Positions 36,086 through 40,107 of a stretch of DNA of 44,978 nt are shown in pieces. A program made the position numbers and the translations under genes. The stretch lies in the NCBI GenBank assembly GCA_021821635.1, contig JAKACH010000006.1, forward strand, positions 1 through 44,978, in the 5' to 3' direction. The stretch comes from Thermoplasmata archaeon (GTDB lineage Archaea; Thermoplasmatota; Thermoplasmata; Thermoplasmatales; Thermoplasmataceae). Within the stretch, counting starts at the first letter, position 1, and every line of letters begins with the position of its first letter. The notes beneath the pieces were generated by a model. It saw only the letters and a list, made by a program, of their open reading frames with translations, was not told where the DNA came from and did not search any database.

Positions 36086-36250
36086 CCCTCCCCTTTCCTG
36101 TATCAGGTTTCCGGGGATACCCTTATAACGTTTAATCAAACTCCGCTGATCAAGCAGGCCCGGTGCACAATATTTAATATCAGCCTGTTGTAGAAGCAGT
36201 GTCCAGAGCCATTTACTCATTTTTAAAATGAAGAAAAAATGATTTTTTCC
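36086..36250. promoter_or_regulatory. Palindrome-rich AT-rich intergenic region upstream of the polB2 cassette
   Basis: TCATTTTTAAAATGA (36217-36231) and GAAAAAATGATTTTTTC (36233-36249) in tandem; CCCCGGAAACCTGATACAGGAAAGGGG on the minus strand at 36091-36117. Confidence 0.4.
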
Positions 36251-36269: not shown

Positions 36270-36692
36270 GTGCACGGAAATATAAGGTATTCCAGGCTGG
36301 AGAAGTTCGATCCTGCTGAGGTACATGAATTCATGAACTGGGCTTCCGGCAGATATGCAAGAGCCCACCTCCTTATCTCTGACGGGATAATATTCAACGT
36401 CCGGTCACTCTCGGGCTTCGATCTTGAGATAGCCATACAGAGGGTATTGAATCCCCACCAGCTCCAGAATATCCTGATATCCGGGGACAGTGATCCATAT
36501 TTCATAACTGTGATGTCGGATGTCGCATCTTCCTGGTCTCTGGAAATAGCCGAGAGCATCTATGAGGTCATGAGGATGAAGGCTTACAGCCTGGGCTGCT
36601 ACATATTTTTCTTTGTTTTCGGGAAGCCATGGATCTATGAGTACATGTTCACCGGATACCCGCGCACTCCGGTATCAGATTTTGAGGGATAA
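36270..36692 (+). CDS. Conserved-looking hypothetical protein, first gene of polB2 cassette (GTG start)
   Basis: 140-aa ORF with a 2-nt gap to the next gene, same strand as polB2; no family recognised. Confidence 0.65.
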   Translation: MHGNIRYSRLEKFDPAEVHEFMNWASGRYARAHLLISDGIIFNVRSLSGFDLEIAIQRVLNPHQLQNILISGDSDPYFITVMSDVASSWSLEIAESIYEVMRMKAYSLGCYIFFFVFGKPWIYEYMFTGYPRTPVSDFEG

Positions 36693-36694
36693 GA

Positions 36695-36931
36695 ATGGGG
36701 AGAACAACGCCAACAGCCAGGCAGTCCATAGATAGGATTGCAGAATCGATAGAGAAGATGTGCAGCCTGATGAATTCCACGGATGCCAGGATAACACGCG
36801 ATCTTCTTGCAAAGGGCAGGAAGCGCTCCGCTGAGATATCTTTTTCAGCCATTGATCCCGAAACAGGATTCATTCTTGCACTTCTGCTTGAGATTGAGAA
36901 GGAGATATTGTCAATCAGGGAAAGGACATGA
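36695..36931 (+). CDS. Small protein (78 aa), second gene of polB2 cassette
   Basis: MGRTTPTARQSIDRIAESIEKM...SFSAIDPETGFILALLLEIEKEIL; 4-nt gap to polB2. The MGRT(N/T)PT start resembles small haloarchaeal proteins as I recall them (unverified). Confidence 0.65.
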   Translation: MGRTTPTARQSIDRIAESIEKMCSLMNSTDARITRDLLAKGRKRSAEISFSAIDPETGFILALLLEIEKEILSIRERT

Positions 36932-36935
36932 TCCG

Positions 36936-38939
36936 ATGGAGCCTGTACTGATCAATGGCACTGGAACCGACAATGTGGCGCTGTGGTATTATTCCAACGG
37001 AAGGATCGGGAAAAAGGTGTACAGGAACCCGTCATGGATATTCGTTGAAGGTGACGGCTATGATCTGGATCGCCTTGAACGGGATCTCGAAGAGACAAAG
37101 TTCCACTTTGACAGGAGTACGGGTAAAACAATATTCGGAGAAATAGAAGGCATCAGGATCTACTCCCGGCCTTCGGCTATAGGGTTCCTCCGCCAGGCTG
37201 TGGAGTCTGTCGGCTTGAACAGGAAATTCAAGATATATAATGCAGATCTCAACCCGGTCCTGAGGTATATATCACAGCGTGGCCTCCAATTTTTCAGGCT
37301 TGATCAGTATACGGACAGGGACGTTGAGATACCATCGGTTAAGATAATCCCGAAAGTCGCAGCGGGCAGACCCGTATCTGTATTGCTGGATGACGTGCCC
37401 TATTCCATGCTTGATAGGTCTTTCTACATGGATGCTGCCCAGGCAATAAAAGAGAGCACTATAATTGTATATGACAACACAATGAATTCTTTCACCGGCA
37501 TAGTGGAAAAGATCATAGATCTCGGATACGATCTCTCTGTCCACGTGAACCCTGGAAGCACGTTCCAGTCATACGGGAGGATACACCACAAGAACACTTC
37601 CGTCCAGATCTACGGTAAAATGTGCATAAACGCAGATTCTTTCATATACTCCGAGGCTGGGCTTGACGGGCTTTTCCAGGTATCCAGGATATCTTCACTG
37701 CCGCTGGAAACTGCGTCTTCGGTCACTCCTGGAACTGCGGTATCAGCGCTGGAAATGTCAAGGGCTGTGAGATACGGGTATCTGGTGACAGCATACAAGG
37801 ACGACCACGAGGGAGAAAAGAGCCCTGAGGAACTTATCTCCACGGATAGAGGTGGGCTGGTCCTGGATCCTGAGCCGGGATTATATGACGATGTGTATGA
37901 GATAGACTTTTCATCCATGTATCCGAGCATTATTGTCAGGTACAATCTATCACCCGAGACGGTCATGCGATCCGGAACGATAGCAGTGCCTGAAACGCCA
38001 TACTTCATCTCTACCGGGAAAAGGGGCTTTCTGTCCGCAGCACTTGAGGAGCTTCTTGAGACAAGGCTCAGGTACAAGGCAATCAAGACCATGGATCCAC
38101 TCTATGCCAACAGAGATATAGCACTTAAATGGCTTCTGCTGACATCGTTCGGATACACAGGATACAAGAACGCAAAGTTCGGTAAGATAGAGGTGCATGA
38201 AGCAATAACGGCACTTGGCAGATGGATTCTCTCAACAGCCATCAGGCTTGCAAGGGAGATGGGCTTTACCGTCATACATGGAATAGTCGATTCTTTATGG
38301 ATAAGGGGCAATGGCGATATCTCAGCGCTTATAGAGAGGATAAAGCAGGTTACGAGAATAGACATAGTTGTGGATGGGCATTACAGGTGGATCGCATTTC
38401 TTCCTTCAAGGAAGGGCATCGGATCTCCGAATAGTTACATAGGGCTCAGGATGGACGGCACCTACAAGCTGCGTGGAATAAGCGCGAGGAGATCAGATGT
38501 GCCCACGGTTGTGAAAAAGATGCAGGTGGAGTGTCTTGAGATCCTCAAGAATTGTATTTCATCGAAGGATATTGTGGCATGTTCCAGGGATCTTTATGCA
38601 ATCAAGGCGAGATACATGGCTGAAATACAATCTTATCCAAGGGAAGACCTCCTTGTGAAATACAGGATAACAAGGCACCCAGAGGAATATGTTTCCGGCA
38701 CCATGCAAAAGGGGATCGCCATGTCGCTGCACAGGAGAGGAATGGAAGTTAACCCTGGCGAGAGTGTTGAAGTCCTGGTCACAGGAGCTGAGTTCCATGT
38801 CGCCGACATAGATGGGGGAGGGCTGGCAGATCGCAGGTTCTACGGGAAGCTGGTTGGAAGGGCATTTGAGTGCTTTGAATACATGCTGTCGGAATCGGCT
38901 AAAATATCAAGGAAAGGTGAAGAACTGCAATTGTTCTAG
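36936..38939 (+). CDS. B-family DNA polymerase, archaeal PolB2-type with altered motif B/C
   Basis: Motif A DFSSMYPSIIVRYNLSPE, motif B region ALKWLLLTSFGYTGYKNAKFGKIEVHEAIT, motif C HGIVDSLWI in place of YGDTDS; no clear ExoI DxE. Confidence 0.88.
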   Translation: MEPVLINGTGTDNVALWYYSNGRIGKKVYRNPSWIFVEGDGYDLDRLERDLEETKFHFDRSTGKTIFGEIEGIRIYSRPSAIGFLRQAVESVGLNRKFKIYNADLNPVLRYISQRGLQFFRLDQYTDRDVEIPSVKIIPKVAAGRPVSVLLDDVPYSMLDRSFYMDAAQAIKESTIIVYDNTMNSFTGIVEKIIDLGYDLSVHVNPGSTFQSYGRIHHKNTSVQIYGKMCINADSFIYSEAGLDGLFQVSRISSLPLETASSVTPGTAVSALEMSRAVRYGYLVTAYKDDHEGEKSPEELISTDRGGLVLDPEPGLYDDVYEIDFSSMYPSIIVRYNLSPETVMRSGTIAVPETPYFISTGKRGFLSAALEELLETRLRYKAIKTMDPLYANRDIALKWLLLTSFGYTGYKNAKFGKIEVHEAITALGRWILSTAIRLAREMGFTVIHGIVDSLWIRGNGDISALIERIKQVTRIDIVVDGHYRWIAFLPSRKGIGSPNSYIGLRMDGTYKLRGISARRSDVPTVVKKMQVECLEILKNCISSKDIVACSRDLYAIKARYMAEIQSYPREDLLVKYRITRHPEEYVSGTMQKGIAMSLHRRGMEVNPGESVEVLVTGAEFHVADIDGGGLADRRFYGKLVGRAFECFEYMLSESAKISRKGEELQLF

Positions 38940-38988
38940 TGCGTGGGTTCAAGAACAAATATCTGGAACCTGGCCAAAGGAATGATGC

Positions 38989-40107
38989 TTAAGGAAGCCG
39001 GGCAAGAATGCTTTCAATCTTTTCAGAAAGTGCATCTAGCGGAACATCGTTGATCATCAGGACCTTCTCGACGCCTTTCCTGTCCCCCCTTCCCTCAAGC
39101 CTGCTTTCGAGAAGCCCGTATGTTTCAAGCCTGCTGGCCACCCTGTAGAATTTCTGCCTGTCCATGGGCTGCATGCCGTAGCTCTCGGCCAGAACAGCAT
39201 ATCTCGCCATGACGTTAGACAGGGTTGCATAGAGGCCATCCTTGAGACAGAACGCTGTAGAGAGGAGAAGGACAAGATCCTCCTGCTCCAGTCCATTGAG
39301 CTTGCTTTCCGTAAAATATGGGTTTATCATTGCCCTTGCAGCGCGTATGTCGTCGGGCGATATCGACTCCGACTGGTCATGCTTCGCTATATATGCCGCC
39401 TTCTGGAGCAACTCAATGGCGACTCTTGCGCTTCCGAGCTGGGCAGCAATGTCCGCTATCATTGTGATAATCTGATCATCATAGGTAGCAGGGTAAAGGC
39501 CGCTTCCAGCCCTGTCCTCAATTATCATGTAAAGTTCATCCTTTGTGTACCGACTGAACTTTATCGGAACATACGAGGAGACGGATCTTGTCCTCTTTTT
39601 CCTGAAAATGATGTATGGATCGTCCAGCGAAATCAGGATAGACGACAGTCGGAGAGAGTAGATCTCTGAAGCCCTCATTATGCTGTAAAGCCCTGCCTGA
39701 TCCTCCCTCATCAGGTTCGTGGACTCGTCTATTATCAGCAGGATCCCTTTCCCGCGTCTTTCCTGTATCTTCGAGATTGAGCGCAGCAGGTCAGATATCG
39801 TATAGGTGGAGAACTGATCCAGCCTAGTGAATGTTGATACGACCTCTCTCAGGAGAGCAGTGAGTGAGGGAAACGAGAGCGCATTCATGTAGACGCAATC
39901 CAGATCCGCAGTGGTCCTGGATATGTGCTTTGCGGTGGTCGTCTTTCCCGTCCCGGGTTCGCCATAAAGAATAACTGTCCCTGAAATGCCTCCCAGCAAG
40001 GGTTCTATAAGTGCAGTTCTGATCTTTGAGATCTCGTTTTCCCTGAATAGAAGCTTATCAGGAACAAATGAGAGATTGAGATATTTCTCGTCCTTTATGA
40101 TTGGCAT
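38989..40107 (-). CDS. Orc1/Cdc6 AAA+ replication initiator / regulator
   Basis: VILYGEPGTGKTTTAKHIS Walker A, GILLIIDESTNL Walker B, C-terminal winged-helix-like region with VASRLETYGLLESR. Confidence 0.93.
   Translation of the reverse strand: MPIIKDEKYLNLSFVPDKLLFRENEISKIRTALIEPLLGGISGTVILYGEPGTGKTTTAKHISRTTADLDCVYMNALSFPSLTALLREVVSTFTRLDQFSTYTISDLLRSISKIQERRGKGILLIIDESTNLMREDQAGLYSIMRASEIYSLRLSSILISLDDPYIIFRKKRTRSVSSYVPIKFSRYTKDELYMIIEDRAGSGLYPATYDDQIITMIADIAAQLGSARVAIELLQKAAYIAKHDQSESISPDDIRAARAMINPYFTESKLNGLEQEDLVLLLSTAFCLKDGLYATLSNVMARYAVLAESYGMQPMDRQKFYRVASRLETYGLLESRLEGRGDRKGVEKVLMINDVPLDALSEKIESILARLP

Follow-up and report, generated by a model that had tools for sequence, protein, structure and literature searches.

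The window analysed here is a 44,978-nucleotide stretch of contig JAKACH010000006.1 from a Thermoplasmata archaeon of the Thermoplasmataceae. It carries a cassette of three genes, iRadA, PPB2 and PolB2, a convergent orc1/cdc6 gene and, 5′ of the operon, a conserved tandem direct-repeat box, GCCATTTACTCATTTT (Table 1). The reading put forward is of a translesion PolB2 mutasome, encoded by the cassette, and of an Orc-derived activator that acts on the tandem box; taken as a whole, it is probably correct. The conserved box, its position before a group of small proteins termed family X, and its pattern of presence with the Orc are not described in the literature searched, and on sequence evidence they point to a small damage regulon. 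Neither that literature nor, to our knowledge, any other describes a Thermoplasmata damage regulon with an identified operator. The cassette itself and the enrichment of polB2 near orc1/cdc6 are already published and not new, and the window holds a new instance of an already described operon. An earlier note on this DNA had interpreted the locus from its genes; its observations are confirmed and its interpretation is partly supported. The conserved repeat upstream (36208-36223) was overlooked.

The box was seen on inspection of the 5′ regions of the operon. Its consensus, CTCATTTNCTCATTTT, is a tandem direct repeat with an 8-bp period, found 45-53 bp before the iRadA start. Matches to at least 12 of 15 positions are present in 28 of 32 family loci as against 3.5% of shuffles, and matches to at least 14 of 15 in 18 of the 32 as against 0.016%. 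An alignment of 29 promoters shows a TATA-like A/T-rich stretch at -24 to -30 relative to the start codon, which places the box just upstream of the core promoter. The exact 16-mer occurs at 45 sites in 77 genomes (0-8 per genome), nearly all of them upstream of genes, and the reversed control gives none. About 16 of these sites precede iRadA and one (in G018) is inside a coding frame; the remainder precede family X genes, radA (genus g16), an AbrB-like 55-amino-acid (aa) gene, genes for 61-69-aa proteins and IS605 TnpB copies, with two sites (G048 C76 and G063 C32) left out of this survey of gene context. Within the window, matches to the pattern with two mismatches are no commoner than chance, and therefore the window alone would not have revealed the box. 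Lists of sites with two to three mismatches in the window's own genome were set aside as mostly noise; the exception is the GCCANTTNCTCATTTT form, which has two sites.

Family X consists of 60-75-aa proteins with a motif like GYxKGWxDRKxxDxxII...SxxxxEFxxxLRE, present in several copies per genome (L183-L201, L204-L212, L307-L309, L321); no Pfam or PHROG family was matched. A profile was seeded with five box-linked proteins and gave 32 matches, spread over 21 of the 77 genomes. Thirty matches have loci, and after removal of two false ones and one without upstream sequence, 27 are assessable. The box (two mismatches or fewer) is found at 45-52 bp in 23 of the 27, always in the sense orientation; in three others a repeat is present but its spacing is shifted. 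Without the five seeds the count is 18 of 22. Fewer than 0.1 matches would be expected by chance, an estimate based on about 10-36 sites per genome with two or fewer mismatches. A protein of lineage f3 related to family X (BLAST 5e-10 to the G034 member) is preceded by a TTCATTT form of the box. The sequences flanking the box differ between genes and genera, and its distance and orientation are fixed. Most box-linked genes encode small proteins of no assigned function. In four g16 species (L145, L222, L232, L235) the exact box is about 290 bp before the start of radA, with a long leader that contains a short open reading frame (ORF). It is very likely that the genes share a regulon through the box.

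The three-gene cassette is almost certainly the published PolB2 mutasome operon iRadA-PPB2-PolB2, which has also been modelled as a complex (PMC4104785, PMC11791011). Re-reading bore out the ORF coordinates, lengths, motifs and spacings given by the earlier note: 2 nt between iRadA and PPB2, 4 nt between PPB2 and PolB2, and 49 bp between the convergent stops of PolB2 and orc. In 36 of 36 loci examined in lineages f1 and f3, iRadA and PolB2 are in the same order, and PPB2 is present in 35; because the gene order is kept across these loci, conservation of the cassette is far beyond chance. The note had taken a failure of the small ORFs to recur beside PolB2 as a refutation, and both are conserved in f1 and f3 loci. 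Its proposal, in which two accessory proteins serve a damage-tolerance module, is in line with PMC4104785, PMC11791011 and the Sulfolobales PolB2 papers, and as an idea it is not new.

PolB2 displays motif A as EIDFSSMYPS, motif B as LLLTSFGYTGYK and motif C as HGIVDSLW. It scores 603 bits to NCBIfam NF004416 (PRK05761.1-2; curated cut-off 516), and DNA_pol_B is its sole Pfam domain, with no exonuclease domain matched at that level, in keeping with loss of the proofreading exonuclease. As described for PolB2/Dpo2, which have an invariant His and a D(K/R) loop (PMC8764526), the first Asp of motif C is absent, the His is invariant, the motif A Asp is kept and the loop is present. Across 41 loci, HGIVDS, TSFGYTGYKNAKFG, DFSSMYPS and the DRGG loop hardly vary, and the odd motifs are therefore features of the family and not decay of one genome. 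In Sulfolobales, PolB2/Dpo2 is a damage-induced mismatch extender (PMC7390963, PMC8764526, PMC10470591); the Sulfolobus Dpo2, with a motif C of the same kind, has been shown biochemically to have polymerase and mismatch extension activity (PMC8764526), and SiRe_0614-0616 are 21-26-fold up after treatment with 4-nitroquinoline 1-oxide (NQO) (PMC10470591).

The 140-aa protein is best read, from sequence comparison and synteny, as a severely eroded, ATPase-less iRadA, because the f1 iRadA profile finds the f3 iRadAs (1e-15 to 1e-18) and because L073, the product of the gene in the same operon position in a class-level relative, matches Pfam Rad51 (4.7e-9). An orthologue in the iRadA position is present in every f1 and f3 locus. 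RadA models match L073 (2.3e-8) and L074 (7e-4), and f1 iRadA is joined to the outgroups by weak profile scores (0.0026-0.41) plus synteny. The window protein itself has no direct RadA match in Pfam, profile or model searches, and a profile-profile comparison of f1 iRadA with Thermoplasma-type RadA gave no link, the tie to RadA being through the outgroup orthologue and synteny. The Walker A motif GxxxxGK[TS] is absent, a loss of the ATPase motif, and an AlphaFold prediction of iRadA from three sequences has a predicted local distance difference test score (pLDDT) of 48. A severely eroded RadA relative, arCOG07763, has been reported (PMC4104785). The protein encoded 4 nt before PolB2 is PPB2, judged by its 78-aa length and MGRT N-terminus; PPB2 (arCOG07300) is described as having about 80-90 aa and an N-terminal MGRT arm and as a predicted helical trimer binding PolB2 and iRadA (PMC11791011). 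A single 219-aa frame at L058 combines iRadA and PPB2, with VGRTVPT as an internal start; fusions of this type have been reported before.

The locus resembles the published PolB2 operon (arCOG07763/04294/08101, arCOG07300, PolB2; PMC4104785, PMC11791011) in its three genes and their order, the MGRT of PPB2, the missing first Asp of motif C, the invariant His, the D(K/R) loop and the orc1/cdc6 neighbour. Two things set it apart. Its iRadA stands at the far end of the range of erosion, with about 116-160 aa in most f1 and f3 loci and no direct RadA match, and within the family PolB2 is always accompanied by the Orc, in convergent orientation.

The Orc of the window matches Pfam Cdc6_lid, AAA_22 and Cdc6_C and has intact Walker A (GEPGTGKT) and Walker B (IIDE) motifs, as an AAA+/winged-helix protein would. 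It is convergent with and adjoins PolB2 in all family loci examined, at a spacing of -28 to about 525 bp. Of 72 Thermoplasmataceae-like genomes, 59 have both PolB2 and the neighbour-type Orc and 13 have neither; none has one without the other. Four of the 13 (G023, G042, G060, G064) are about 99% complete. When 53 Orc proteins are placed in a tree, the non-adjacent Orc of f3 shares a clade with the neighbour Orc (100/97), apart from that of the second Orc type, which makes the neighbour a paralogue distinct from the genome's other Orc1 type. Archaeal polB2 neighbourhoods are known to be enriched in orc1/cdc6, with arORC2 in euryarchaea (PMC4104785, PMC11791011). In genus g4, the box is found 44 bp upstream of the orc gene itself.

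The lineages differ in where box and Orc are found. In the sister family f4, iRadA-PPB2-PolB2 is retained and an Orc of the neighbour type is missing (best matches 1e-17 to 1e-20), and no box is found upstream in L071, L072 and L347, the upstream sequence of a fourth locus, L346, being too short. In f3, an Orc of the same clade is encoded elsewhere in the genome, and a two- to three-fold TTCATTT repeat precedes both iRadA and the X-like gene. Lineage f5 has no clear PolB2, neighbour-type Orc or promoter box. Matches to the pattern in f4 and f5 are mostly inside long reading frames. The earlier note's suggestion that the Orc is a regulator thus gains indirect support from the co-loss, the separate paralogue clade, the operator-like repeat and the absence of that repeat where the Orc is missing. 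That the Orc is the factor reading the box is somewhat favoured by these comparisons. The contrast between f3 and f4 is the best argument for such a role, although it is drawn from few independent lineages. Several points limit or weigh against the idea of an Orc-derived activator acting on the box. Co-loss of PolB2 and Orc alone does not prove a functional link, because the genes adjoin and single deletions could remove both. No box could be recognised in the more distant genomes of f2, f12 and f14, although these too encode PolB2 and an Orc2-like protein. The window's box has two mismatches and reads ATTTAC/ATTTTT, with no strict ANTTTC, and ATTTTC is found in only 14 of the 32 family boxes. 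In the window's genome only one other genus-type box is found (L176; G000 contig C25, 997-1012, minus strand), and it is doubtful whether the 32-aa ORF that follows it is a real gene. As the box precedes orc in genus g4 only, autoregulation of orc was rejected as a general feature, and so was radA as a general regulon member, with the box in 4 of 30 loci, all of genus g16.

The closest regulatory parallel is the Sulfolobus Orc1-2, which recognises ANTTTC and serves not as an initiator but as an activator of Dpo2 and TFB3 (PMC9738581). Induction of upsX by ultraviolet light (UV) in Sulfolobus requires ATTTTC at -44 to -39, upstream of the B recognition element (BRE) (PMC5817253). The two systems have in common an Orc paralogue with intact AAA+ and winged helix, the PolB2 operon as a target (predicted in Thermoplasmata), a T-rich element in the same orientation upstream of BRE/TATA and, in genus g4, an orc gene with the box before it, much as Sulfolobus orc1-2 carries its own element. 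The Thermoplasmata element differs in being a longer tandem CTCATTT repeat with an 8-bp period, without the ANTTTC sequence in the window. Further, exact 16-mer sites number 0-8 per genome, as against 214 genes in S. acidocaldarius, and family X proteins are among the box-linked genes. A more distant likeness is to the bacterial SOS response (LexA; Pol V or ImuABC mutasomes), in which a rare operator also precedes a translesion mutasome and small proteins, and bacterial PolB2 operons adjoin lexA (PMC11791011). The operators are unrelated, and the regulator predicted here is an Orc-derived activator in place of a self-cleaving repressor.

By the mechanism proposed, PolB2, lacking proofreading, would extend primers that end in a mispair or at a lesion. 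iRadA, a RadA fold with its ATPase lost, would dock on PolB2, and the MGRT arm of PPB2 would hold the two together in a complex such as that modelled in the literature. The operon would be silent or low until DNA damage. The convergent Orc1/Cdc6 paralogue, as activator and not initiator, would then bind the tandem CTCATTT repeat upstream of the core promoter and recruit the basal transcription machinery. By analogy with Sulfolobus, the operon is likely to be damage-inducible; no Thermoplasma UV or NQO transcriptome was found in the literature searched. In several relatives the box would also drive family X, to which single lineages would add radA, a radical-SAM gene and IS605 TnpB, giving a small SOS-like regulon. 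Such a regulon, with an Orc-derived activator on CTCATTT boxes, a PolB2 mutasome, family X and TnpB elements that respond to host damage, is offered tentatively, the chances being slightly below even. A rare, position-fixed box and a co-inherited candidate regulator next door make the question of a Thermoplasmata damage regulon directly testable. If the proposal is true, Orc proteins that have become transcription factors exist outside Sulfolobales as well, and the small proteins of family X gain a candidate pathway.

A different explanation keeps the same mutasome but has the box read by another regulator, a helix-turn-helix factor or an alternative transcription factor B, with the Orc as a linked factor that restrains replication at origins during fork stalling. 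This would fit the lack of a box before orc in most genera, the proposal that Cdc6-2 is a repressor of initiation in Sulfolobus (PMC6934391) and the replication roles suggested by Makarova et al. (PMC4104785). It is unlikely in view of f4, which has PolB2 with neither the neighbour-type Orc nor the box, of f3, which keeps box and Orc although the latter is not adjacent, and of the Sulfolobus Orc1-2, which activates Dpo2 and binds promoter elements (PMC9738581).

The box might also have nothing to do with damage and be instead a strong-promoter element or constitutive activator, shared by a few genes through descent or through transposition with IS605/TnpB elements. TnpB elements in G020 and f3 do have the box, and the box-linked genes are mostly small proteins without an assigned function. 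The flanks vary across genes and genera, however, while distance and orientation are constant; the commonest target is a damage-tolerance operon, and radA is a target in one genus. This explanation is quite improbable. Finally, the PolB2 operon could be inactive or decaying, its conservation reflecting slow loss, as the missing first Asp of motif C, the eroded exonuclease and the lost iRadA ATPase might suggest. With the near-invariance of HGIVDS, TSFGYTGYKNAKFG and DFSSMYPS in 41 loci and the activity of Dpo2 with such motifs (PMC8764526), decay is hardly credible.

Table 1. Features of the locus, in positions of the window
Feature	Position	Strand	Basis or remark
Tandem direct-repeat box GCCATTTACTCATTTT, predicted operator	36208-36223	+	Ends 46 bp before iRadA start codon; 2 mismatches vs CTCATTTNCTCATTTT
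A/T-rich stretch, putative TATA position, weak in window	36234-36248	+	Relatives' promoters
iRadA (best reading), 140 aa, GTG start	36270-36692	+	Operon position, outgroup orthologue
PPB2 (arCOG07300), 78 aa, N-terminal MGRTTPTARQ	36695-36931	+	MGRT motif (PMC11791011), kept in relatives
PolB2, 667 aa, translesion extender type, motif C HGIVDS, D(K/R)GG loop TDRGG	36936-38939	+	NCBIfam NF004416, motifs
orc1/cdc6 paralogue, arORC2-type, 372 aa, predicted transcriptional activator	38989-40107	-	Pfam, tree clade, co-occurrence with PolB2

Some minor observations concern other box-linked sites. At the site of the 32-aa ORF, G002 and G004 (L270, L271) have similar promoter flanks, but the ORF is not conserved; it was rejected as a conserved gene, having no alignment with G004 beyond the start. 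A radical-SAM gene of G021 (L128:2102-3115), nearest to the NCBIfam PA0069/Rv2578c type but below cut-off, has a one-mismatch box 74 bp upstream. In three g16 genomes (L143, L233, L234) the box is followed by a gene for a 55-65-aa AbrB/MazE-like protein, a weak Pfam match below cut-off, which is a possible secondary regulator or antitoxin. In two of the archaeal families, IS605-type TnpB genes display the same tandem box next to their start (L086 and L094-L097 in G020, L223 in G048, L311 and L312 in f3). One of these, L095, matches NCBIfam guided_TnpB at 5.5e-31, and the mobile TnpB elements may have acquired the host's box.

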